DNA of 56,568 nt, taken from NCBI GenBank assembly GCA_007134845.1, contig SLKA01000085.1, forward strand, positions 1 to 56,568, given 5' to 3'. The notes beneath the pieces were generated by a model, which was not told the origin of the DNA, did not search any database, and worked only from the letters and a program-made list of their open reading frames with translations. Shown in pieces: positions 9,655 through 55,569 of the stretch (positions within the stretch are counted from its first letter, which is position 1; every line of letters begins with the position of its first letter). The position numbers were made by a program, and so were the translations under genes. Source of the stretch: Balneolales bacterium. GTDB taxonomy: Bacteria > Bacteroidota > Rhodothermia > Balneolales > Natronogracilivirgulaceae.

Positions 9655-10476
9655 TCAGTTGCTGTCCAGCTCGGACTGCCGGAAACTTGATGCTTCCTGT
9701 TCCTGGATATCACCCTCTCCCAGGTGCTTCTGCATTTCATAACGCAGCTTCTGGATCGTCAAACCACTTGTAAGAGCACCATTCTGCGCTATTGAAATCC
9801 TTCCCGTCTCCTCGGATACCACAACCACCAGCACGTCATTCACTTCACTGATGCCCAGCGCGGCACGGTGACGTGTACCGAATACCGATGAGATATTGGG
9901 ATTCTGACTGATGGGCAGATAGGCACTCGCAGCGACAATCTTGCTATCCCGAATCACCACAGCGCCATCATGCAATGGCGTTTCCTTGTTGAAGATGGTC
10001 AGCAGCAATTCACTGCTCACAGTGGCATCAAGCCCGACCCCTTTATCCACCAGATCATTCAGCGGCGACCCTTTTGAAAAGACGACGAGAGCTCCGGTCT
10101 TGGTCCGCGACAGGGTTTTCACAGCCTCAATTACCTCCTCAATCACTGAAAAGGAACCGCCCCGATCAAAAAATTTGTATAGCGTGGTATTTTGACCAAT
10201 GTTGTAGAGCAGCTTGCGTATCTCTGGCTGGAATATGATGATAACGGCAATTATACCAACATCAATCAACCTCCGGAGCACAAAATTGATAGTGGCAAGT
10301 CCAAACAGGCTTACAACCGCATTGACAAGAAAAACGATCATCAGTCCAATAACTACAGGCACGGCGAATGATCCGCGTATCCACCTGTAGAGCAATAGAA
10401 TAACACACGCGATGATGAGCGTCTCTATAAGGTCTTTCAGACCGAATTCCAGAAATCCAAGTGGTAAGATTTCCAA
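9655..10476 (-). CDS. cdaA: Membrane diadenylate cyclase CdaA
   Basis: This 273-residue enzyme condenses two ATP into cyclic di-AMP, a messenger mostly tied to potassium/osmotic and envelope homeostasis. Three hydrophobic helices occupy about residues 15-82. The DisA_N cyclase domain follows with 'LHDGAVVI' (Asp170-Gly-Ala, metal/nucleotide site) and 'GTRHRAALG' (Arg202-His-Arg204). The start codon is TTG at 10474-10476, since no in-frame ATG precedes the first membrane helix. It sits 81 bases downstream of folP. A folP-cdaA pair is common in Bacteroidota. No c-di-AMP phosphodiesterase (GdpP/PgpH) is in the window; nrnA at 49984 could act on the pApA product. Confidence 0.95.
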
Positions 10477-10557
10477 TGTGTTTATGCCGGTTGACAGTTA
10501 GGGGTAACAAGTTATGCAATCCTGCAGGGGCATCCATCCCAAGATAACTTCTTTGTG

Positions 10558-11442
10558 CTACAAAACGGAAGAAATCGCCTTGAAAACTTTCAGTGAATCC
10601 CGCGCTTCACGGACATCATGCACCCGCAAAATATCGGCACCCTGCATCAGTGCATGATAATGAAGCGAAAGCGTTCCGGCAAGTCGTTTATTTACCGGCC
10701 TGTCACCGTTTTCATCTGCCAGAATACGCCCGATCATTGATTTGCGTGATGCTCCTGCAAGCACGGGATAACCAAGACGCTTGAATGTGCTCAGCCTGGC
10801 GATGATTTCCAGGTTGTGCTGCACTGTTTTCCCGAATCCAATTCCCGGGTCAATGACGATCTGCCGCACCCCTGATTCCCCTGCTGATTTCGCCTGCTTC
10901 ATCAGAAAATCGGAAATTTCACCGATGACATCGTCATACTCCGGCCGCTCCTGCATGGTTTTGGGCAACCCCTTGCTGTGCATAAGCACCAAAACCGCAT
11001 TGTATTCAGCGCACAGTCCGGCCAGCCTCGGCTCCCGCTGCAGCCCGCTCACATCATTGACCATCTGAACACCGCACTCAAGCGCTCTGCTGGCCACCGG
11101 ATATTTGGTGGTGTCAATGGAAAACATGATCCCGGGAAATTCGGACACAGCTTTCTCGAGCACCGGTATAACACGGCTTATCTCCTCCTGCACCGAGACC
11201 GGATCAGATCCCGGACGCGTCGACTCTCCACCGATATCTATGATCCCCGCTCCCTCCCGGACCATCTGCTCTATTCGGCGCAACCCCTCATCGACACCGC
11301 CAATTTCCCCGCCATCCGAAAAAGAATCGGGTGTGACATTGAGCACGCCCATGATCACTGGCGTTGAAACAGAAAGCGCCTTGCCCGTAAGGACAAAGCG
11401 CTTATAAGAATTCTGATCCGCTTCGGAATTTGGGTTTCCCAC
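10558..11442 (-). CDS. folP: Dihydropteroate synthase
   Basis: This folate-pathway enzyme joins p-aminobenzoate to 6-hydroxymethyl-dihydropterin pyrophosphate and is the sulfonamide target. The 294-residue TIM barrel shows the signature 'MGVLNVTPDSFSDGG' (31-45), 'DIGGESTRPGSDPV' near 69-82, 'FSIDTTKYPVA', 'VNDVSGL' and 'IVIDPGIGFGKT'. The start is GTG at 11440-11442, supported by GGAAAGGAAG five bases upstream. It lies 34 bases downstream of fdxA and 81 bases upstream of cdaA on the same strand, so the three are probably co-transcribed. Confidence 0.96.
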   Translation of the reverse strand: MGNPNSEADQNSYKRFVLTGKALSVSTPVIMGVLNVTPDSFSDGGEIGGVDEGLRRIEQMVREGAGIIDIGGESTRPGSDPVSVQEEISRVIPVLEKAVSEFPGIMFSIDTTKYPVASRALECGVQMVNDVSGLQREPRLAGLCAEYNAVLVLMHSKGLPKTMQERPEYDDVIGEISDFLMKQAKSAGESGVRQIVIDPGIGFGKTVQHNLEIIARLSTFKRLGYPVLAGASRKSMIGRILADENGDRPVNKRLAGTLSLHYHALMQGADILRVHDVREARDSLKVFKAISSVL

Positions 11443-11476
11443 TATGCTTCCTTTCCGGGTTGCAGTTAACCGGCGA

Positions 11477-11806
11477 TTATTCCTTAATCATATCGACGGT
11501 TTTCTCTTTTTCCGCCCACTCATCTGCTTCCGGCAGCGGGTCTTTCGTCTCGTTGATGACCGCATCATCCCAAACTTCCGCGAGCCGCTCGTTTAATTCG
11601 ATGTAATTTTCCCATTTTTCAGGCACTTCATCATCCGGGAAAATGGCCTCGACCGGACACTCGGCCACGCAGGCGTCGCAATCGATGCAATCATCGGGAT
11701 GAATTACAAGAAAGTTGGGGCCTTCACGAAAAGCGTCGACCGGGCAAACCGCAACGCAGTCCGTGTATTTGCAATTGATACAGGGTTCGGCAACTACGTA
11801 TGTCAT
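11477..11806 (-). CDS. fdxA: 7Fe ferredoxin FdxA
   Basis: This small soluble electron carrier of 109 residues holds one 3Fe-4S and one 4Fe-4S cluster. The cysteine pattern (Cys9, 12, 17, 21, 40, 43, 46, 50) matches Azotobacter ferredoxin I with an offset of one, and the flanking text '[13 protein letters not shown]', '[11 protein letters not shown]' and '[10 protein letters not shown]' is typical of the family. The ATG at 11804-11806 has AAGGAAT about eight bases upstream. It is the first gene of the fdxA-folP-cdaA-mutB-meaB run. Its redox partner is not identifiable here. Confidence 0.95.
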
Positions 11807-12048
11807 TCTTTTATTCCTTGCTTGGTTACTAATTTCAATTGATGTACAAATTCAAAAAATCTCCCAGAAGTCTTCCGTCTGCTGATTCTGCCACCTCTGA
11901 TTGTCTCCTTTAATTCCGGATCAAATTATCTGAAAAATAAATCAGATTCAATCCAAATAGAGAAAGCCACTGCAATCTGCATGCCTGCGTTAACAGACGC
12001 GATGCCGATGTACAAAATCAGATGATTGCAGTTATTTGATGAATGCAT

Positions 12049-13272
12049 TTATTTTTTGATGATATGCCAAACTTCCTTCAAGGAACCGTCATTTCCCGCA
12101 GGTTCAAGATCCAGGATGTAACAGATCATCTCATAGATGTGAACGAGTTCGAACGGACCGACGCGCTTGCCTTCATGAAAATCCGGTCCCTTTGCCAGGA
12201 ATATGGTCCGCATTTCCGGTTCGCGGTGATCCCATCCGTGATGTCCGGCCAGGACGCCGCGCCGTTCAAACATGGAACGGCTGGTGATCGTCCAGGGAAG
12301 ATCAGCCACAAGAATAATTTCCGGCGTGCGACGGTGGCTGCCAATTCGGTATTCATCCGGAAGCTCCTGCCGGTAATAGACCCGGTAGTTGTCCTCTTTC
12401 GCTTTCAGTAATTCATAGACCTCTTCCCGCTTGCCTTCATTCGGACGGATCATGGAGACCGGGCCCCATCCAACCACCCGCAGATCATCCAGATCGATAA
12501 TTTCATCCAGAAAAATGACCTTGTCCTCCGATGGCGCTGCCATGCCATGATCAGAGACAATAACCAGATTAGTTGATTCCAGGAGTCCGTTCCGCTCCAG
12601 CCCGGATATAAGATAACCCATGTCCTGGTCCATATCTGCAATGGCTTGCGTCACCTGGTCACTTTCCGGTCCATGACGATGCCCTTCCGAATCTATCCGG
12701 CTGAAGTAGAGTGTTATAAAGTCGGGACGCGTATCATCTTCCAGTGTCAGCCATGTGATGACCGAGTCAATCCGCTGCTCATGCGGAATCCTGCCATCGT
12801 AGTCATTCCACCGGGTTGGACGCACACCCGCGATCTCAGCCTCGCTGCCAACCCAGAACATGGAGGCCGTCCGCACTCCCTGCTTTTCTGCTGTTACCCA
12901 AAGCGGCTCCCCCTCGTACCAGCGGCCCTTTACCAGCTCCTCCCTGTTGCCAAGGCTGAATGTGGCATCCCACTCCGGATCGTACATCGTATTTGACAAA
13001 ATGCCATGATTTTCGGGATAGAGCCCGGTCACGACAGAGTAGTGATTGGTGAATGTAAGCGTGGGAAATACCGGGATCAGGTACTCTGCCAAAACCCCCT
13101 TTTCAATGATCAGATCAAAGTTCGGAGTATCGGTCCGATCAAAATATTCCGGCATGAAACCATCAATAGAAATAAGCACAACGGCATTTCTCTGCTGAGC
13201 GGCAAGGGTGGCGGAGTGCAAGGACAACGTGAGTGTCAGCAGCTGAACAAATAGCATAGTATATCGCGACAT
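12049..13272 (-). CDS. Secreted nucleotide pyrophosphatase/phosphodiesterase (NPP, alkaline phosphatase superfamily)
   Basis: This 407-residue enzyme is exported by a signal peptide (about residues 1-25, ending 'SATLAAQQ') and predicted to hydrolyse phosphodiester or pyrophosphate bonds of extracellular nucleotides with two zinc ions. The NPP ligands are present: Asp37 in 'LISIDGF', the nucleophile Thr73 and Asn76 in 'PTLTFTNHYS', Asp/His in 'IDSEGHRHGP', 'VSDHGM', and the last His in 'GHHGWDH'. The gene is isolated, with 240 bases before fdxA and 452 bases before the next gene. It may be periplasmic or surface-exposed. The substrate (nucleotide, phospholipid head group or other) cannot be told. 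Confidence 0.9.
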   Translation of the reverse strand: MSRYTMLFVQLLTLTLSLHSATLAAQQRNAVVLISIDGFMPEYFDRTDTPNFDLIIEKGVLAEYLIPVFPTLTFTNHYSVVTGLYPENHGILSNTMYDPEWDATFSLGNREELVKGRWYEGEPLWVTAEKQGVRTASMFWVGSEAEIAGVRPTRWNDYDGRIPHEQRIDSVITWLTLEDDTRPDFITLYFSRIDSEGHRHGPESDQVTQAIADMDQDMGYLISGLERNGLLESTNLVIVSDHGMAAPSEDKVIFLDEIIDLDDLRVVGWGPVSMIRPNEGKREEVYELLKAKEDNYRVYYRQELPDEYRIGSHRRTPEIILVADLPWTITSRSMFERRGVLAGHHGWDHREPEMRTIFLAKGPDFHEGKRVGPFELVHIYEMICYILDLEPAGNDGSLKEVWHIIKK

Positions 13273-13724: not shown

Positions 13725-14180
13725 ATGAAAAAACTAGTTGCATTACTTTTATTGACCGGTGTCATGGCAATCGCGGCAGAGGCTCAAAATACAGAAAGAA
13801 ACAAGGGACTTGGGGCAATTATCGGAGATCCCACCGGTGTGAGTCTGGCATACTGGACTTCCGACAATCAGGCTTTCAGCGCAGGGGCGGCATGGCATTT
13901 TGTACATAACCCATCCATGCATTTGCACGTGGATTATCTTTTCTACCGGTTTGACATCATTGAGCCAAATGTCGGAGCCCTGCCGCTCTATTTCGGGGTG
14001 GGTGGACGCATCCGGTTTGACTATGAGGATAAATTCGGCATTCGCTTCCCGCTGGGTTTAGCATATCACTTCCAGAACGATCCGCTCGAAATCTTTCTCG
14101 AAGTTGTTCCTGTTCTTGACCTGGTGCCCGGCACAGGATTTTCCGGAAACAGTGGTATAGGAATCCGATACTACTTCTAA
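13725..14180 (+). CDS. Small outer-membrane-type beta-barrel protein, DUF3996-like
   Basis: This 151-residue exported protein has a signal peptide (about 1-20, 'MKKLVALLLLTGVMAIAAEA'). The mature part alternates hydrophobic and polar residues and ends in an aromatic residue ('IGIRYYF'), as in outer-membrane barrels. The stretch 'IIGDPTGVSLAYW', 'LHVDYLFY', 'LPLYFGVGGRIRF' and 'EVVPVLDLVPGTG' resembles the DUF3996 family; that assignment is by recall and not searched. At this length it would form a small barrel, probably 8 strands. Function is unknown. A structured leader of up to about 300 bases precedes it, and no good ribosome binding site is visible. Confidence 0.8.
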   Translation: MKKLVALLLLTGVMAIAAEAQNTERNKGLGAIIGDPTGVSLAYWTSDNQAFSAGAAWHFVHNPSMHLHVDYLFYRFDIIEPNVGALPLYFGVGGRIRFDYEDKFGIRFPLGLAYHFQNDPLEIFLEVVPVLDLVPGTGFSGNSGIGIRYYF

Positions 14181-14349: not shown

Positions 14350-15597
14350 TTAGCCGGATATATGAATGGTCTGTCCCTCATGCGCAAGTTCTGCATGCAT
14401 CTGCGAATCCTTGGCCATTTTCTTGACCTTTTCCTCAACCTTATGCAGCTCATCGTCGGTAAAGTCCGGGCCGAAATGTGTCAGTATCAGGTGTTTAACG
14501 CCGTTCTTTTTTGCCCGTTCCACAACAAGCTCCCAGGCGGAGTGCCCCCGGTTTTCCTTGCTCCTGTATTCTTCCAGGTCGAACTGGGCATTGTGGATAA
14601 GCACATCAGCTTCTGACACAAAAGCGTCAAACTGCTTGAGATAGGGAAGGTTCTTGCCTCTCATGCTGCTGTTTTCAAGCGTATTCAGCTCGTTGTCAGG
14701 GCAAAAAACAATCTTTTTCCTTCCGATTTCAAATTTGTAGATCGCCGTTTCTACCGGATGATTGGCAGAGATGTACCGAACGCTGTATCCCTCAAAATTC
14801 TGCCCATCCCGTTTAATTGCATGGTAATCCAGGTGTGCCTTTAGCATTTGCGCTGTAATGGGCGAGTACGTGTAAGACACCTGATCAACCAGGACTTCCT
14901 TCGTGGAACCGGTAATCTGCTGCGGCATGTAGACATCGAACTTGTTCCTGTCGGAAAAAAGCGGCTTGAAAAACGGGAACCCCTGGATATGGTCCCAGTG
15001 GGGATGGGTGATAAAAATCCTTCCCGTAACCGGCTCTTCGTCATCCTGAAGCTGATTTCCAAGACTGCGAAGACCTGATCCGGCATCCAGGATGAGCAGC
15101 TGCTTCTGACCGGGAACCTTGAGCTGTACGCATGTGCTGTTTCCTCCGAACTCTTCATATTCCTTGCCAGGACAGGGAATGGAGCCCCGGACACCCCAGA
15201 ATGTGATCTGAATGGCATCACCCAGAACTTCTTCTATTTTTTCGGCAAGCTTGCTGTAAATCATCGGCTTGTGGTAAAAATCGGTCACCCCTGCCTTAAG
15301 GGCGATATCTTTTTCCACAGGATAATCGCGGCCGGTTAATACAAGAATGGGAAGATTTTCAAAATTGTCATCCTCTTTAAGCTGCTTGCAAAGATGAAGT
15401 CCGTTGCCATCGGGGAAATGAAGATCCATGATGATCAGATCAGGTCTGACATCGTACACGCTTTGAATTGCTCCCTCGAAGGTATTATGCTGGTAAAACT
15501 TGTAACCTTTTTTTCTGAGAAAAGAACCGACCAACTCACAAAGAGTGAGGTCATCCTCTATCATCAGTATTTTCATTCCCCTTTCAGTCTTCGCCAT
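14350..15597 (-). CDS. Receiver domain fused to metallo-beta-lactamase-fold hydrolase
   Basis: In this 415-residue cytoplasmic protein residues 8-125 form a CheY-like receiver with acidic pocket Asp15/Asp16, phospho-acceptor Asp58 ('LIIMDLHFPDGNG'), Thr88 and Lys110. Residues 130-415 form a metallo-beta-lactamase-fold hydrolase: 'FWGVRGSIPCPG', 'EFGGNSTCV', metal motif 'THPHWDH' (His198, His200, Asp202, His203), then 'ILTHFGPDF'. The hydrolase half resembles RNase Z/cyclic-nucleotide phosphodiesterase-like proteins; the substrate is unknown. Phosphorylation may switch the enzyme on or off. No cognate kinase is adjacent. The start MAKTERG is supported by AAAAGGAA about 11 bases upstream. Confidence 0.88.
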   Translation of the reverse strand: MAKTERGMKILMIEDDLTLCELVGSFLRKKGYKFYQHNTFEGAIQSVYDVRPDLIIMDLHFPDGNGLHLCKQLKEDDNFENLPILVLTGRDYPVEKDIALKAGVTDFYHKPMIYSKLAEKIEEVLGDAIQITFWGVRGSIPCPGKEYEEFGGNSTCVQLKVPGQKQLLILDAGSGLRSLGNQLQDDEEPVTGRIFITHPHWDHIQGFPFFKPLFSDRNKFDVYMPQQITGSTKEVLVDQVSYTYSPITAQMLKAHLDYHAIKRDGQNFEGYSVRYISANHPVETAIYKFEIGRKKIVFCPDNELNTLENSSMRGKNLPYLKQFDAFVSEADVLIHNAQFDLEEYRSKENRGHSAWELVVERAKKNGVKHLILTHFGPDFTDDELHKVEEKVKKMAKDSQMHAELAHEGQTIHISG

Positions 15598-15722: not shown

Positions 15723-17927
15723 CTAATCGTCCAGTTTTTGCCGAAGCTCTTCCAGTTTATCCTGTTTTTGTTCAAGAACTTTCTGTGATTTATCAATTTT
15801 CTGTTGGATTTCATCAATCAGGACATTTCCTTTTCCGCCCGGATTAATAAATGTTTTGGTATCCATAAACCGCATAATTTCCTCATGAAGATTGTCACAT
15901 TCTTTCTTCAATTTAAAATATTCGGCGCGCAGGGACTTGTCCTCCGAAACCGATGCTCCTGAAGCTTTTCCGGTCATTTTCCGGCCACTGCCGCGTACCC
16001 GCTGATATATACGATCACAGGCTTCCTTGTACTCTTTTTCAATCTTGTTTTTCTTCTTGATGGGCACAAAGCCGATTTTCCGGTATTGCTCCTGAAGCTG
16101 CTTTGCCTGCTCCACCGCTTCTTCCGGATTTTCATGGTCACCCAGCTTCACCAGTTCAGCAACAATTTCCTTCTTCTTGTTGTAGTTCTCTTTCTGCTCA
16201 TCTCTGATAACCTTGAAATGTTCTCTGCGCTTATCATAAAATTCATCCATGGCCTTTTTAAAACGCTTCCACACTTTTCCAGCCTTCCTTCGGGGTATCG
16301 GACCCATTTGCTTCCAGGCTTTCATGAGCGCATCCATCTCTGCTGTGGCCTGATTCCAATCCGTGCGTTTTGAGACCTCTTCCGCCTTTTCGCATAATAC
16401 CAGTTTTTCGTTCAGGTTCTCTTGCTCCTGCTCGCGGATGACATCCAGATTTTCACTCTTTTTCTCATTGAATTTCTTCGATGCTTCATTAAACCGATCC
16501 CACAGTTCATCACTCTTCCCTTTCGGAACCGGGCCAATTTTTTTCCACTTCTTGTGAAGATTATTCATTTCCCGTACAGCAACGGCAAGATCCTCCTCTT
16601 CCGCGAGCGCTTCCGCCAGTTCACACAGCCGGATTTTATTCCGGATATTTTTCGTTGTCTGTGCGCGAAACGCCTTGTTATACTCCATTTTTTTGTTGAA
16701 GTAATCATCACGAACCGCCTTAAAACGCACCCAAACCGTATCCGACTGCTCATTTGGAACATGGCCGATTTTCCGCCACTGCCGGGATAGCTCCTCAACG
16801 TCCCTGTCAAGCTGCTCCCAGTTCTCTGTTTCCGGACCGACCGAAGCAATAATCTGATTCAGCTTGTCGAGAATGGCCAGCTTGCCTACAAGGTTTTCCT
16901 CTTCTTTCTGTCCTTTTTTTACCAGATAGGCAACTTTTTTATCATTGAACTCCTTTATAAGTTCCTGATATTTATTTTCCTGCTCCCTGACTTCTGGCTC
17001 ATTCGGCAGGTCCCTTATTTCCTCCCACCGGTTTGTAAGGTTGCCAACCTGCTTGAATGCCTGCCATTTTTTCTTGTCAATGATATGCTGCAGCTGATCC
17101 AGAATCTTTGCACGCCTGTCCAGGTTCTCCTTCTTCCGTTCGCGTCGCTTTTCCACCCATTTTGATTTCTTTTCCGCCATCTTCTGTTGCGTGGCATCCA
17201 AACGCTGCAGCAAATTCTGATAGCCGGGCTCCTGGATCAGTGACCCTTCCACTTCTATGAGCTGATCCCACTTGAAACGGATATTATCGAGCTCAGACTG
17301 CATGGTCTGCCAGTTGCTCTCACCGGCAATCTCATCCGCTTTATCTGCAAGCTCGACCAAAGCAGACAGCGACTCGGGATAATCAACTTTCTCAGCTGCT
17401 TCTTCTTTATCCGGTTGTTCTTCACCTGCTTGTTCCTTCTCCGGCACTTGTTCCTTCTCCGGCGCTTGTTCTTTCTCCGGCGCTTGTTCTTCACCTGCTT
17501 GTTCCTTCTCCGGCGCTTGTTCTTTCTCCGGCGCACTCTCTTTCACCGATTCCATCTGCTCTGTTTGACCGGTTGAAGTCTCCGTAATCTCAGTAGCTGA
17601 TTCCGTCTTTGATTCACCGCATTCGCGGATCACAGCATCTATCTTGCCGACAAGAGTCTCAAAATCACCGACAGCTCTGGCTGAAATGACTTCATCCCGC
17701 AGCTTTTCAAGTCTTTCAAGCAGCTCAGGCTCACGCTCCTGATCGCCAACCGATTTCAGATAAGAATCCACATACTTTTCGATATCCGAAAACATTTTTG
17801 AAAAATAGCGCAGTGCCTCGCCGGTTTCGGCCGGATCCACTTTTACAAGCTCTTTTCCCTGAAATATCGCATTGTCATTTTGCAAAATGCGACCGTCTGT
17901 CGTAATGGTTGAATGCTCTTTTTCCAT
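15723..17927 (-). CDS. DUF349 repeat protein with charged tandem-repeat linker
   Basis: This 734-residue, highly charged and helical protein has at least five or six DUF349 units of about 70 residues ('W..L....VWKRFKKAMDEFYDKRREHF' type), probably forming long coiled coils. Residues about 125-200 are an acidic low-complexity linker built from APEKEQ and AGEEQ repeats. DUF349 proteins are common in Bacteroidota and actinobacteria; their function is not settled. ATG at 17925-17927 is preferred over the in-frame GTG three codons upstream. There is no signal peptide. Neighbours (REC-MBL, SDR) give no functional clue. Confidence 0.9.
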   Translation of the reverse strand: MEKEHSTITTDGRILQNDNAIFQGKELVKVDPAETGEALRYFSKMFSDIEKYVDSYLKSVGDQEREPELLERLEKLRDEVISARAVGDFETLVGKIDAVIRECGESKTESATEITETSTGQTEQMESVKESAPEKEQAPEKEQAGEEQAPEKEQAPEKEQVPEKEQAGEEQPDKEEAAEKVDYPESLSALVELADKADEIAGESNWQTMQSELDNIRFKWDQLIEVEGSLIQEPGYQNLLQRLDATQQKMAEKKSKWVEKRRERKKENLDRRAKILDQLQHIIDKKKWQAFKQVGNLTNRWEEIRDLPNEPEVREQENKYQELIKEFNDKKVAYLVKKGQKEEENLVGKLAILDKLNQIIASVGPETENWEQLDRDVEELSRQWRKIGHVPNEQSDTVWVRFKAVRDDYFNKKMEYNKAFRAQTTKNIRNKIRLCELAEALAEEEDLAVAVREMNNLHKKWKKIGPVPKGKSDELWDRFNEASKKFNEKKSENLDVIREQEQENLNEKLVLCEKAEEVSKRTDWNQATAEMDALMKAWKQMGPIPRRKAGKVWKRFKKAMDEFYDKRREHFKVIRDEQKENYNKKKEIVAELVKLGDHENPEEAVEQAKQLQEQYRKIGFVPIKKKNKIEKEYKEACDRIYQRVRGSGRKMTGKASGASVSEDKSLRAEYFKLKKECDNLHEEIMRFMDTKTFINPGGKGNVLIDEIQQKIDKSQKVLEQKQDKLEELRQKLDD
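17414..17534 (-). repeat. In-frame 18-base coding repeats in the DUF349 gene
   Basis: The reading frame encodes APEKEQ (18 bases) five times, one of them VPEKEQ, and AGEEQ (15 bases) twice, in a higher-order order of two or three APEKEQ then AGEEQ, duplicated. Copy number changes would keep frame and lengthen or shorten the linker. Confidence 0.92.
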
Positions 17928-18076
17928 TAATATCACTGTAGATGCGGATTACAATACTATGTATATAATACACCTTGACTCATTAATAACAAACAGTTAC
18001 CGCTTGATGCAGATGAAAAGGCACCTGTTCAGATCCAAAGTATAAGTTGATAAATTTTAGGGCTTAAAAGAATAAT

Positions 18077-18125: not shown

Positions 18126-18911
18126 CTACTTGCGCATGACCATACCGCCAATCAACATACCGACACGAACCGGCACCCATTTACTGAGCAGATAGGAAAT
18201 GCGTAAAAGTGATCTTGAAAACTTCATCGGTATGTTTTCCGCCAGGCCAGTCAACCCTTTCAAAGCCACCGCTTCAGGTGATTGCAAACCCCGAAAAGCC
18301 GCCTTTCTTATATCTGCTCCGGCCACATCAAAAAATTGCGTATTGACCGGACCCGGACAGAGTGAACTGATGTGAACCCCGGTATCCTCAAGCTCCTTCC
18401 ACAAACTCCAGCTGAAATTGATGACAAACTGTTTTGTTGCCGAATATACGGAGAAGTAGGGAACCGGCAAAAACCCGGCCATGGAAGCTACATTCAAAAC
18501 CCCACCCTGGCCCCTTCCCACCATTCCCGGAACAAGAAGACGCGTCAATAAAATAAGAGAATGTACGTTCACCTGCATCATATGCTGATACATTTCAAAA
18601 TCACCGTCGATAAAAGCTCCGTTATAGCCGAATCCGGCATTGTTGACGAGCACATCAATATGATGATTTTTTTTTTCAACTTCCCGGATCAGCGAGGCCG
18701 GTCCATCCGGATCTGACAGGTCCGCCGGAATGACGGATACTTCGCAATCGTATTGTGACCGGAGTTCCTTTGCCAGCGCATCAAGGCGGTCCTTCCTTCT
18801 GGCGGTTATTACAAGATCGGCACCGTACGATGCCACTTGACGACAAAAAGCGATCCCGATTCCCGATGAAGCACCGGTAACCAGGATCGTTTTATTATGA
18901 TAATACTGCAT
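18126..18911 (-). CDS. Short-chain dehydrogenase/reductase (SDR), DltE/YqjQ-like
   Basis: This 261-residue NAD(P)-dependent oxidoreductase with a Rossmann fold shows the cofactor motif 'TGASSGIG' (12-19), 'NNAGFGYNG', catalytic Ser in 'NVASMAGFLPV', and the 'YSATK' Tyr/Lys pair, then 'CPGPVNTQF'. 'ARRKDRL' after beta-2 favours NADP(H). The substrate is unknown; classical SDRs of this type act on carbonyls of lipids or small metabolites. The in-frame region upstream runs into the mscS gene, so the start was set at the ATG 18909-18911 giving MQYYHNKTILVTG. It follows mscS by 28 bases, and a terminator follows it. Confidence 0.9.
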   Translation of the reverse strand: MQYYHNKTILVTGASSGIGIAFCRQVASYGADLVITARRKDRLDALAKELRSQYDCEVSVIPADLSDPDGPASLIREVEKKNHHIDVLVNNAGFGYNGAFIDGDFEMYQHMMQVNVHSLILLTRLLVPGMVGRGQGGVLNVASMAGFLPVPYFSVYSATKQFVINFSWSLWKELEDTGVHISSLCPGPVNTQFFDVAGADIRKAAFRGLQSPEAVALKGLTGLAENIPMKFSRSLLRISYLLSKWVPVRVGMLIGGMVMRK

Positions 18912-18939
18912 TGCGATCAACCCGACTGCTAAAAAATGA

Positions 18940-19764
18940 CTATTTCTGGCTTTTATCAGCCTGATAAAAGTGAACATCCCGCTGAGGGAAGGGGATGGTG
19001 ATTCCTTCCTTGTCAAATCGTTCTTTGATATCCTTGATCAATGCAAATCTTGTTGGCCAAAGGTCGGATGCCTTGGTCCATGGACGCACATACAGGTCCA
19101 CCGAACTATCCCCCAGCTCGCCAACGGCCACCATGGGTTCCGGATCCGCAAGTACGCGCTCATCCGCATCCAGCGCTTCCCTGACAATCTTCATCGCCTT
19201 ATCAATATCATCTGTATAGCTGATGCCAAAGATCATATCCACCCTTCTTGTTGGATTTGTCGAAAAGTTCGAGATATTTGCACCCCAGATGTTACTGTTG
19301 GGAATGACCATGTAAATATTGTCAAATGTGTGCATTTGCGTAGAGAAAAGTCCGATTTCATCCACCACACCCAGAACCCCGCTTATATTGACTGCGTCAC
19401 CGACATTAAACGGGCGAAACAGCATAAGCATCACGCCTGCGGAGAAATTGCTCAGTGTTCCCTGCAATGCCAGACCAACAGCAAGTCCGGCCACACCAAG
19501 CAGTGCAACAAGGCTTGTCGTTTCCACACCGAAGCGATTCAGCACAGCTATTACCGTGGCAATAAGAATAAGGACCTTGACTGATTGCGTAAGGATCGGG
19601 GTCAGTGTCTTGTCGATGCGCTCTGACTTCTCACATGATTTTCTCACGCGCTTGCTGGCCCAGCTGGCGATCAACCAACCGATAATCAGGATGGTTACCG
19701 CACCAATGATGTTGAATCCGTAAGGAATTATCACTTCGGCAACAATTTCTTCGAAATTTTCCAT
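18940..19764 (-). CDS. mscS: Small-conductance mechanosensitive channel MscS
   Basis: This 274-residue inner-membrane channel opens under membrane tension to release solutes on osmotic downshift. Three membrane helices lie within about residues 15-125. The pore helix has the Gly/Ala-rich 'GVAGLAVGLALQGTLSNFSAG', cut here to the family pattern, followed by the beta domain ('MLMLFRPFNVGDAV', 'PNSNIWGANISNFS') and an alpha/beta C-terminal domain ending 'PFPQRDVHFY'. Length matches E. coli MscS (286). A run of four perfect 8-base repeats lies 69 bases upstream of the ATG and may affect its promoter. It is probably co-transcribed with the following SDR. Confidence 0.95.
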   Translation of the reverse strand: MENFEEIVAEVIIPYGFNIIGAVTILIIGWLIASWASKRVRKSCEKSERIDKTLTPILTQSVKVLILIATVIAVLNRFGVETTSLVALLGVAGLAVGLALQGTLSNFSAGVMLMLFRPFNVGDAVNISGVLGVVDEIGLFSTQMHTFDNIYMVIPNSNIWGANISNFSTNPTRRVDMIFGISYTDDIDKAMKIVREALDADERVLADPEPMVAVGELGDSSVDLYVRPWTKASDLWPTRFALIKDIKERFDKEGITIPFPQRDVHFYQADKSQK

Positions 19765-43775: not shown

Positions 43776-45116
43776 TTATCTGTTCTGCCTGCCTTCCTCT
43801 TTCGCTGCTGTTTTCCTTGCATTTCCATTCACCGGCAGCATCATCCGGAACGTAGTGCCCTCGCCCGGAGCTGATTTATACACAAAGATTCTTCCCTTGT
43901 GGTACTCCTCCACAATCCGGCGAGTCAAACTCAATCCGAGTCCCCATCCTCTCTTCTTTGTGCTGTAACCCGGATTGAAAATCTCCTTTTTGTGCTTTTT
44001 CTCAATCCCCTTGCCTGTATCGGTTACATCTATCACATAATGATTGTTGTGTTCATGAGTCTCTATATGAACCCGGGCATTGCCATTTTTGGAATCGATA
44101 GCATCCAGCGAGTTTTTCAGGAGGTTCTCAATCGCCCAGGCAAAAAGCTCCGGGTTGATGGGGATCCTCCTTTCCGATCTGACATCCATCGAAAGTGTGA
44201 CATGCTTGCCATGCTGCGGCATGCGACGCTCCAGATATTCCATCACCTGCCGAATGATAGGCCCCACTTTTTTGGGTTTGAGCTCGGGTATGGAGCCGAT
44301 TTTATTGAAACGTTCGGCAACCGTCTGCATGCGCTGCAGATCACTGGAAATCTCATGCGCTATCTGAAGCGTTTCCTGGTCGTTGTTCTGCTCCTTAAGC
44401 AGTGCCATCCATCCATACAGACTCGAAAGCGGTGTTCCCAGCTGATGCGCCGCCTCACGCGCCATTCCAACCCAGAGATTGGACTGCTCTGTACGTTTTA
44501 TACTGCTCAGGCTCAGGTATCCCAGCCCCAGAAAGAGAGCCAGCAGCCCGAATTGAACATAGGGGAAATACTGAAGTGTGCGGATGATGGCGCTGTCGCC
44601 GTAATAGACAAACTGCTCCTGGATCATGTCACCCTCTCCAAGCTCAATCCGGATCGGTTCATTCTGTGATGCATATTCAACTATGATCTGCTCGTTCAGC
44701 TCCCGGTTTCCTGTATTCCTGGATCCCAGAATATTCATATCCTCGTCAACAACGATAGAGGGAATTTCAAACCGGTTTTTTATGATCAGTTCTGATGCAA
44801 TGAAATCGAGCGAAGCATTGGACAAGTCGGATTCCGCCCTGTTAAGCGCACGTATCCAGCGATTTTTTACCAGATCACTGATCCCCTCATGTGTTGACAT
44901 CTCCACCATGATGGCCGAAAGCTCATCTCGTGTATCCTGGTAGAGCGGCCTGCTGTTGTACTCCATGGCCCGGGCCCACAATTCAACACCGGAATGCTCC
45001 TTCTCACGGATTTTCTCAATCAGATACTGGGTGTAAATAAACGAACCGATGGCAGTGACAACCAGAAAAAAGACAAGTGCAATCTTGATCCGATTCGATG
45101 TGCTGTTGAAGAACAT
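43776..45116 (-). CDS. Two-helix membrane sensor histidine kinase
   Basis: This 446-residue kinase has membrane helices at about 10-30 and 187-207 flanking a periplasmic sensor domain of about 155 residues. It has an H-box with the atypical 'EAAHQLGTPLSSLYGW', N-box 'ENLLKNSLDA', G1 'DTGKGI' and G2 'GWGLGLSLTRRIV'. A HAMP domain is not obvious. The C-terminus is basic. No response regulator is adjacent, so it is an orphan. The AHQxGTPLSS form of H-box is frequent in Bacteroidota kinases; PorX (54022) is a candidate partner by inference only. Confidence 0.92.
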   Translation of the reverse strand: MFFNSTSNRIKIALVFFLVVTAIGSFIYTQYLIEKIREKEHSGVELWARAMEYNSRPLYQDTRDELSAIMVEMSTHEGISDLVKNRWIRALNRAESDLSNASLDFIASELIIKNRFEIPSIVVDEDMNILGSRNTGNRELNEQIIVEYASQNEPIRIELGEGDMIQEQFVYYGDSAIIRTLQYFPYVQFGLLALFLGLGYLSLSSIKRTEQSNLWVGMAREAAHQLGTPLSSLYGWMALLKEQNNDQETLQIAHEISSDLQRMQTVAERFNKIGSIPELKPKKVGPIIRQVMEYLERRMPQHGKHVTLSMDVRSERRIPINPELFAWAIENLLKNSLDAIDSKNGNARVHIETHEHNNHYVIDVTDTGKGIEKKHKKEIFNPGYSTKKRGWGLGLSLTRRIVEEYHKGRIFVYKSAPGEGTTFRMMLPVNGNARKTAAKEEGRQNR

Positions 45117-54021: not shown

Positions 54022-55569
54022 TCATTTAGGCTGCAGACGGGCGAGTGGCAGAATCATCTCCTCCATGGAAGCGCCGCCGTGCTGGAAGGTGTCACGGTAT
54101 TTGTTCTGATATTTGTTATAGTTGGTTGGATAGACAAAATAGTAATCTTCCAGGGCAATGATATAATTGGTATTCATATTGGCTCTCGGAAGAAAATAAT
54201 CCCCGGGTTTGTCGATGTATATCGCGGCATTGTTATCACATCGCAGATGACGGCCGAATTTGTATCGCAGACTGGTGGATGTATCCCGGTCACCCAGCAC
54301 CTTGGTATCGCGCATGGCCCGGATCGAACCATGATCCGTGGTAATGATGATATTCACATCCTGTTCCGACAGTTTTTTGAGCATCTGGAACAGCGATGAA
54401 TGCGCAAACCAGGTCCGTGTCAGTTCCCGGAATGCGGTAACGTCCGGTGCAATCTCCTTGAGAACCTGAGAGTCGGATCGGGAATGGACCAGGGTATCTA
54501 CAAAATTTATTACAAAGGCGCTGAAGGGGGATTGTGTATAGTTCAGTATTCTCTCAGAAATCCGCTTGCCTTCCTCTGATTGCAGGATTTTCTCGTATTT
54601 CGGCTTGATGCCGGTCTTCTTTCGCTCAAATTGTGCTGCAAGAAGTTCCGCCTCGTGCTGGTTAAGTGAGGTTTCGTTCTCGTCGCTTTGCGTCCATAGC
54701 TTCGGATAATGCCGTTCAATTTGTGACGGATACAGGCCGGCGAAAATGGCGTTGCGGGAGTAGGGAGTTGCCGTAGGCAGAATAGAGTAATAGAAATCGG
54801 TGTCAATGGCATAATATGGTGCAAGCATCTGCTCAAAAACCAGCCACTGGTCATACCGCATGCAGTCTATCAGAAACAGAAATGTACTTTTACCTTTATC
54901 GATCGTGGGCATAACCACTTCGCTAACAAGATCCGGAGAAAGCATGGGCCGGTCTTCGCGACTCGCCCGAAGCCAGTCATAGTAGTCACTTTGAATAAAC
55001 TTGCCAAATTCCGCATTGGCGGTCTGGATCTGGTCCTGTAGCACCTGCTGCAAGCCCTCTTCCGATCCCTTCAATTCCATCTGCCAGTTGGTGAGCTTCC
55101 GGTATATGGTGATCCATTCGTCCCATTCCGGCTGCTCATTGATCATTGCGGTAATCTCATTAAAACTGCGCAAATAGGACTGTGCTGATTTTTCATCGCG
55201 TATCCGGTGCCGGTCGAGTATCCGTTTAACCGTAAGCAGTATCTGATTGGGATTTACCGGCTTGATAAGAAAATCGGATATCTTTCCACCGATGGCATCC
55301 TCCATGATCTCCTCCTCTTCGCTCTTGGTAATCATGATAACTGGAATACCGGGCTGCTTGTTTTTAAGCTCGGTGAGCGTGGTCAGTCCGTCCATTCCGG
55401 GCATCTGCTCATCCAGAAAAATGATGTCGAATTTCTGCTTGCCAACAAGTGAGAGAGCATCCTCTCCATTGGTAACGGGAGTTACTTCATAGCCTTTTTT
55501 TTCAAGAAAAATGATATGGGGTTTCAGCTGATCTATCTCGTCATCAACCCATAATATGGAAATGCTCAT
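54022..55569 (-). CDS. porX: PorX: response regulator with PglZ domain (type IX secretion regulator)
   Basis: In this 515-residue protein a receiver domain (1-120) has Asp9/Asp10, phospho-acceptor Asp53 ('[12 protein letters not shown]'), Thr81 and Lys103, followed by a helical bundle. The PglZ alkaline-phosphatase-like domain runs from about 215 to the end: '[11 protein letters not shown]' metal ligand, '[14 protein letters not shown]' with the catalytic Thr, 'ITTDHGSIR'. In Porphyromonas PorX is phosphorylated by PorY, acts with the sigma factor SigP and hydrolyses (oligo)nucleotides; it is needed for type IX secretion. That role is inferred here from architecture. It lies 138 bases after the ComEA-like gene. 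Confidence 0.93.

Follow-up and report, generated by a model that had tools for sequence, protein, structure and literature searches.

A receiver–metallo-beta-lactamase response regulator from Balneolales with a predicted cyclic-mononucleotide phosphodiesterase output and changes at its active site in the window's genus

The gene of interest is located on the minus strand of the window, which is the whole 56,568-nucleotide stretch of Balneolales DNA that was analysed, and encodes a protein in which an N-terminal receiver domain (REC) is joined to a metallo-beta-lactamase (MBL) domain. The gene, its functionally relevant parts and the neighbouring genes that feature in the analysis are given below, with the prefixes G and L denoting genomes and loci, respectively.

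14350..15597, minus strand: REC-MBL response regulator of 415 amino acids, with an ATG start, Pfam matches and 17 further family members.
15220..15576, minus strand: receiver domain, residues 8-126, matched by Pfam Response_reg, with E14, D15, D58, T88 and K110 present.
15424..15426, minus strand: D58 codon, the predicted phosphorylation site by residue alignment.
14353..15213, minus strand: FWGVRGS-type MBL domain, residues 129-415, from Pfam Lactamase_B_2, an AlphaFold model and Foldseek/VIA matches.
14989..15006, minus strand: HPHWDH metal-binding motif, residues 198-203, with H198, H200, D202 and H203 unchanged across all 100 rows of the alignment.
14590..14592, minus strand: N336, D or E in relatives (alignment).
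14548..14550, minus strand: R350, W in relatives (GWGHS; alignment).
14470..14472, minus strand: G376, D or E in relatives (HHDP or HFDP; alignment).
15723..17936, minus strand: DUF349 gene, the upstream neighbour of the MBL gene, conserved in the order with or without the receiver.
18126..18911, minus strand: SDR gene, a marker of the syntenic block.
18912..18939, no strand: 28-bp gap between the MscS-type and SDR genes, by synteny the site of a REC-cyclase gene in G445, G457, G461 and G463.
18940..19764, minus strand: MscS-type channel gene, a marker of the syntenic block.
13725..14180, plus strand: small secreted beta-barrel-like protein (DUF3996, 25.6 bits), a convergent and conserved neighbour.
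9655..10476, minus strand: CdaA-type diadenylate cyclase (DAC 145.7 bits, CdaA_N 41.3 bits).
54022..55569, minus strand: PorX-like REC-PglZ protein (Pfam).

An earlier note on this DNA described an intact receiver, with Asp58, Thr88 and Lys110, fused to an FWGVRGS-type MBL, and the description is borne out by a 415-residue open reading frame in which both Pfam domains score above their cut-offs. Response_reg matches residues 10-121 with 68.4 bits (cut-off 30.2), and the acidic pair E14/D15, D58, T88 and K110 are all in place, as expected of a response regulator on both domain and residue grounds; D58, T88 and K110 are kept in 18/18 family rows. Lactamase_B_2 (PF12706) matches residues 169-375 with 43.4 bits (cut-off 27), and Lactamase_B scores 26.9 bits. 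The FWGVRGS motif begins at residue 133, the HxHxDH motif reads H198-P-H200-W-D202-H203, and alignment places the further metal ligands H280, D301 and H374, together with the GHS histidine H352. Since the gene is carried by 17 other family genomes and has a very low dN/dS within the genus, it is not a chance open reading frame. The window comes from a 2.6-Mb assembly that is 80.6% complete, and elsewhere in that genome the protein is matched over the receiver part only. The near relative in the MAG L038, also among the Balneolales, is 91% identical to the window sequence, and the window bacterium presumably comes from a soda-lake setting, as read from sample names. The same note had counted a PorX-like REC-PglZ protein as a second receiver-enzyme fusion in the window, and Pfam confirms it at 54022-55569 on the minus strand. 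Across the order, most of the inspected loci have the DUF349 gene and the gene for the small secreted protein next to the MBL gene. Beside the REC-MBL gene, the minus-strand interval 9655-13272 encodes the CdaA-type cyclase, a pterin-binding enzyme, a ferredoxin and a type I phosphodiesterase/nucleotide pyrophosphatase, in an order that is similar in several family loci.

The hydrolase had additionally been described as intact, which holds for the metal ligands, all of which are present, but not for residues N336, F375 and G376, which differ from those of nearly all relatives. A scan of named genomes yielded 586 stretches encoding a relative, from which the best 80 were kept; by script, 71 of these have an open frame and 70 an FWGVRGS-type motif, the rows dropped being nine without an open frame by the script's rule and L063, which starts past the motif. 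These 70, with 30 earlier sequences, make up an alignment of 100 rows, in which an acid (D or E) occupies position 336 in 96 rows and position 376 in 97, and H occupies position 375 in 94; the window protein has N336, G376 and F375 instead. Position 336 corresponds to the HEAT-motif Glu of RNase Z and also to a Glu in 1zkp, a YhfI-type chain, so that the window protein is missing an acid that is common to both, albeit one that falls outside the published definition of the PF12706 phosphodiesterases.

The REC-MBL gene is present in 18 of the 20 genomes of the family, one copy being truncated at its N-terminus. N336, R350 and G376 occur in all nine copies recovered from the window's genus (10 genomes). 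G446, which by identity represents the closest of the other genera, has D336, W350 and G376, and the remaining eight family copies have D336, W350 and D376; hence D336 is found in 9/9 copies from outside the genus. None of the genus copies has lost any of the seven metal ligands or H352. Within the genus, dN/dS ranges from 0.006 to 0.017 for the receiver and from 0.013 to 0.019 for the MBL domain where dS is finite, although these values are rough, since dS was finite in only 8 of 16 domain comparisons and mostly exceeded 1; the comparison of the window with L038 gave no finite dS for the gene. Conservation of the receiver equals or exceeds that of the MBL domain. Decay of the gene within the genus was rejected on the basis of these ratios (0.006-0.019 where computable), and the combination of strong constraint with a changed active site fits an altered substrate or a non-catalytic role better than it fits decay. 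Judged from the sequences, the genus protein probably has a shifted substrate or is a low-activity, phosphorylation-switched ligand-binding protein. A stricter version, in which the MBL domain of the genus has lost catalysis altogether and acts solely as a binding or scaffold domain switched by phosphorylation, is a genuine if lesser possibility and is compatible with phosphodiesterase ancestry. The replacement of near-universal acids by N336 and G376, the former at a position that is acidic in RNase Z and 1zkp alike, and the conservation of the receiver to at least the same degree as the MBL domain are in its favour; the retention of seven metal ligands and H352 under strong constraint argues against it.

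Fusion of the two domains is not peculiar to the window. Among the 70 motif-bearing relatives from the best 80, 30 have more than 100 residues preceding the motif, and these span Balneolales, Verrucomicrobia, Elusimicrobia and others, with L041-L043 representing degenerate receivers. Of 20 N-terminal receivers inspected from outside the Balneolales, 19 retain D58 and 18 retain K110. At 12 further loci, as read by eye, the receiver is C-terminal of the MBL domain, four of them with an extra GAF-like part; Pfam, applied to four of the 12 (L063, L070, L092 and L100), returned REC in each case, with that of L100 below the curated cut-off. Proteins of approximately 610 residues at L070, L075, L087 and L100 consist of the MBL domain, then a REC-like part, then a GAF domain. 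Given its presence among relatives of several phyla, with D58 and K110 mostly kept, the architecture is widespread, and the receiver lies on either side of the MBL domain in several phyla. The earlier note's premise would have failed had homologues consistently lacked D58 or the metal ligands, which on inspection they do not.

Within the window's order the receiver at the same MBL locus may be intact, degenerate or absent, and in the largest family most members have the MBL domain alone. Intact receivers were found in the window's clade and in G290 (L009). Nine pseudo-receiver rows from the order form one clade (97* in a quick-type tree with midpoint root, from which 19 rows, mostly near-duplicates, were left out). 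This clade comprises L011-L014, L031 and L041-L044; D58 is replaced by E or H in some of its members, and the acidic pair and K110 are lost. Since the receiver of the window resembles that of G290 and occupies the same locus, we infer from the sequences that the receiver was probably ancestral in the order and was later lost or decayed in other lines. Recent addition of the receiver in the window's lineage is unlikely, given the like receiver of G290 at the same locus and the grouping of the pseudo-receivers in one clade.

The AlphaFold model of the MBL domain has a pLDDT of 94, and its top Foldseek match is YhfI (6kns; E 2.2e-15, TM 0.68/0.80), with RNase Z (1y44) matched at E 5.7e-14. By VIA, RNase Z (Z 29.4) and YhfI (Z 28.0; rmsd 2.3 over 236) are about equally close, and chains of the PhnP family are also fold neighbours (6b9v, Z 24.6; 3g1p, Z 24.1). 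RNase Z chains outscore YhfI-type chains in a sequence-profile search of the PDB. According to the portions of the source papers that were available, YhfI and Rv1339, which are of the PF12706 kind, are cyclic-nucleotide phosphodiesterases (PMC9117128, PMC9293780), and the atypical class II phosphodiesterases (PF12706) are defined by a [T/S]HxHxDH motif (PMC9293780). The window protein has this motif, as THPHWDH at residues 197-203, in addition to PF12706 above its cut-off and a YhfI-like fold, and did not match the typical class II domain, PF02112, at E values up to 1. By its receiver the protein thus belongs to the response regulators, and by motif and fold to the PF12706 class II phosphodiesterases, the activity itself being a prediction.

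The distribution of the MBL was compared with that of class III cyclases in a phylum sample of 395 genomes, with the MBL called at E 1e-30 or better and the cyclase taken as PF00211. Both were detected in 87 genomes, the MBL only in three, PF00211 only in 117 and neither in 188 (odds ratio 47, p 6e-26), such that PF00211 is present in 87/90 MBL-bearing genomes and in 117/305 of those without the MBL. Outside the window's order the corresponding counts are 46, 1, 111 and 184 (odds ratio 76). GGDEF, used as a control, has no overall link with the MBL (39, 51, 164 and 141; odds ratio 0.66, p 0.09), and is linked with it outside the order (39, 8, 163 and 132; odds ratio 3.9, p 3.5e-4), and hence part of the MBL-cyclase association may reflect general richness in signalling. 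The p-values are indicative only, since the genomes are related and not independent, and co-occurrence is no proof of a shared pathway. The MBL-bearing genomes without PF00211 are G000, G085 and G286. In a separate count, based on 50 of the 80 best loci, 48 of 50 genomes were cyclase-positive, the negatives being the genomes of L038 and L058.

It is unlikely, in our estimation, that the co-occurrence merely marks signalling-rich genomes and that the MBL substrate is an unrelated metabolite, such as a PhnP-type cyclic phosphate. The PhnP-family chains among the fold neighbours and the GGDEF link outside the order would accord with such a substrate, but the cyclase link is far stronger there (odds ratio 76 compared with 3.9), and a REC-cyclase gene stands beside the REC-MBL gene in all six family genomes that have one. 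These six, out of 20 genomes of the window's family, were identified at 1e-40, and in each the REC-cyclase gene is on the same contig as the REC-MBL gene, 3361-3715 bases away and beside the SDR gene. Pfam finds PF00211 in all six proteins and REC in five, the receiver in G469 being degenerate; one acid alone of the acidic pair is kept (E-N or E-S) in four of the six. The REC-cyclase is the sole PF00211 match in G445, G457, G461 and G463, the last two being represented by loci L040 and L039, respectively; G447 and G469 have other matches. All six have K and D at what we take to be the adenine-specifying positions, so that cAMP is perhaps the substrate of the paired MBL, and what we take to be the transition-state Arg is missing from two of the six (G461 and G445). 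Elsewhere in the order, in G022 and G112, a related MBL gene is directly downstream of a CHASE2-cyclase gene. Proximity of a cyclase to the MBL was rejected as a general rule, being rare outside the family and G022/G112: among loci L009-L133 it was seen in L039, L040, L121, L122 and L067 alone. The earlier note's suggestion of cyclic-nucleotide phosphodiesterase activity is strengthened by the co-occurrence with class III cyclases, the neighbouring REC-cyclase and the YhfI/RNase Z-like fold, and cyclic-mononucleotide hydrolysis, perhaps of cAMP, appears from the sequences to be the likeliest ancestral activity of the MBL.

No REC-cyclase was detected in any of the 10 genomes of the window's genus or in G446. 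No class III cyclase was detected in the window genome, and PF00211 is absent from G446 (97% complete) and from eight of the 10 genus genomes, with the other two, G468 and G472, having an unrelated PF00211 gene of a different architecture (approximately 700 residues). The MscS-type and SDR genes adjoin directly in the window, L038, G446 and G453, indicating that the missing REC-cyclase is not due to an assembly gap at the syntenic site. Absence of a cyclase is not always tied to the residue changes, since G085 (locus L159, read by eye) and G286 (locus L035), both with the MBL and without PF00211, keep canonical acids at positions 336 and 376. Both acids are also kept in G467 (67% complete), where PF00211 was not detected, and in G471, where no REC-cyclase was found. 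The apparent tie between loss of the cyclase and change of the residues comes from a single clade.

The CdaA-type gene at 9655-10476, approximately 4 kb from the REC-MBL gene, raises the question of whether the MBL acts on c-di-AMP, made by the diadenylate cyclase of the same neighbourhood, or on its product pApA. A gene of the same look is similarly placed in other family loci, among them L039, L180, L181, L183, L185 and L188, and the window genome is without a detected class III cyclase. Against this, the characterised PF12706 protein Rv1339 is inactive on c-di-AMP and c-di-GMP, according to the available part of PMC9293780, the phylum-wide link of the MBL is with PF00211, and the short flanks of most orthologues in the order contain no DAC-like gene, which together render a dinucleotide substrate rather improbable. 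Least probable is a phosphorylation-controlled, RNase Z-like nuclease acting in RNA processing, including that of tRNA, a function rejected here despite RNase Z being the best PDB sequence match and tying with YhfI by fold, because the protein scores 85.1 bits against the RNase Z equivalog TIGR02651 (cut-off 292.95) and skips the profile region at approximately 154-212, and because a canonical RNase Z (325.7 bits) is encoded elsewhere in the genome.

With regard to phosphoryl donors, no kinase gene adjoins the REC-MBL gene in the window, as the earlier note had stated. The nearest seen, at 43776-45116 on the minus strand and 28 kb distant, encodes a 446-residue protein with HATPase_c and a borderline HisKA domain; it is a possible partner of either PorX or the REC-MBL protein. 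The note had proposed inspecting the neighbours of homologues for kinases, and these do occur beside some relatives but as the exception: a kinase-type ATPase domain was found in the flanks of 5/29 REC-MBL, 1/12 MBL-REC and 6/55 other loci (flanks of unequal length), and adjacency as a rule was rejected on these counts. Where adjacency is seen, the MBL relative of L062 has an HATPase_c gene directly upstream, and that of L099 a gene for a hybrid kinase with Hpt. At L131 (2648-4815), unfused REC and MBL genes overlap by four bases and are followed by an Hpt-REC gene; this locus is in effect a natural split version of REC-MBL. Loci G000:C137, L141 and L160 encode a kinase whose N-terminal domain is of the cNMP-binding type, and the gene for a small REC protein is just upstream. 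No weight was given to this fusion as a cyclic-mononucleotide receptor in the window's own genome, since by eye the pocket is without the usual Glu and Arg.

We favour, with moderate confidence and on comparative grounds, the interpretation that the REC-MBL protein is a response regulator with a class II (MBL-fold) cyclic-mononucleotide phosphodiesterase as its output, and that in the window's genus its cyclase partner was lost and its active site changed. The architecture, residues, synteny, co-occurrence and strong constraint that underlie this interpretation are directly supported by the sequences. Phosphorylation, hydrolysis, the substrate, the direction of control and the altered activity in the genus are what we infer from them. 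The output would most likely act on cAMP; D58 would be phosphorylated by an unlinked kinase or phosphorelay, and its phosphorylation would modulate activity at the dinuclear metal site. Ancestrally in the family, REC-MBL would have had as its partner a REC-class III cyclase with a gene 3.4-3.7 kb from its own, a pairing through which one two-component network could set both the synthesis and the breakdown of the messenger. Loss of the REC-cyclase gene and fixation of N336, R350 and G376 would then have taken place in the window's genus, with the receiver and metal ligands held under strong purifying selection. If the phosphodiesterase interpretation is correct, a large MBL family gains a testable role, turnover of a cAMP-like signal becomes a direct phosphorelay target in several phyla, and the genus constitutes a natural experiment on the fate of a phosphodiesterase after loss of its cyclase.

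Synthesis and degradation of c-di-GMP are well-known outputs of response regulators. In the freely searchable literature, exclusive of two reviews on what response regulators have as outputs, we found neither a characterised bacterial REC-MBL protein nor a bacterial response regulator described as having a cyclic-mononucleotide phosphodiesterase output, and the REC-MBL architecture was not met in the available portions of PMC5847659, PMC3411652 and PMC12632262; the architecture may well have been mentioned before. Among known systems, PorX of the same window is also a receiver-enzyme fusion, but its catalytic domain is unrelated to the MBL. RNase Z/ElaC is closest by profile score, with HEAT- and GHS-like positions that align with those of REC-MBL, which nevertheless falls far below the family cut-off and skips the middle region of the profile. 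The atypical class II phosphodiesterases (Rv1339, YhfI and Corynebacterium CpdA; PF12706) and Apyc1 share PF12706, [T/S]HxHxDH and the fold with REC-MBL; none is described with a receiver in the portions of the sources available, whereas REC-MBL has the receiver, the FWGVRGS start and, in the genus, N336, R350 and G376. The closest functional parallel is found in Dictyostelium, in which, according to the available part of PMC11988041, RegA is a phosphorelay-fed receiver-cAMP phosphodiesterase and ACB a receiver-adenylyl cyclase. In both cases a receiver precedes a phosphodiesterase and a receiver-cyclase counterpart is present in the same organism, as with the REC-MBL/REC-cyclase pair of the family. 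However, the catalytic domain of RegA is a class I phosphodiesterase and that of REC-MBL has the MBL fold, indicating that the likeness is one of function as opposed to descent of the catalytic domains. We tentatively suggest, as a possibility short of the likelier outcome, that the family had an ancestral two-component 'make and break' pair, encoded in one conserved block, of a receiver-adenylate cyclase and a receiver-MBL phosphodiesterase, paralleling ACB and RegA, of which the window's genus lost the cyclase and kept, under intense selection, a rebuilt and phosphorylation-switched phosphodiesterase for a new ligand or substrate.
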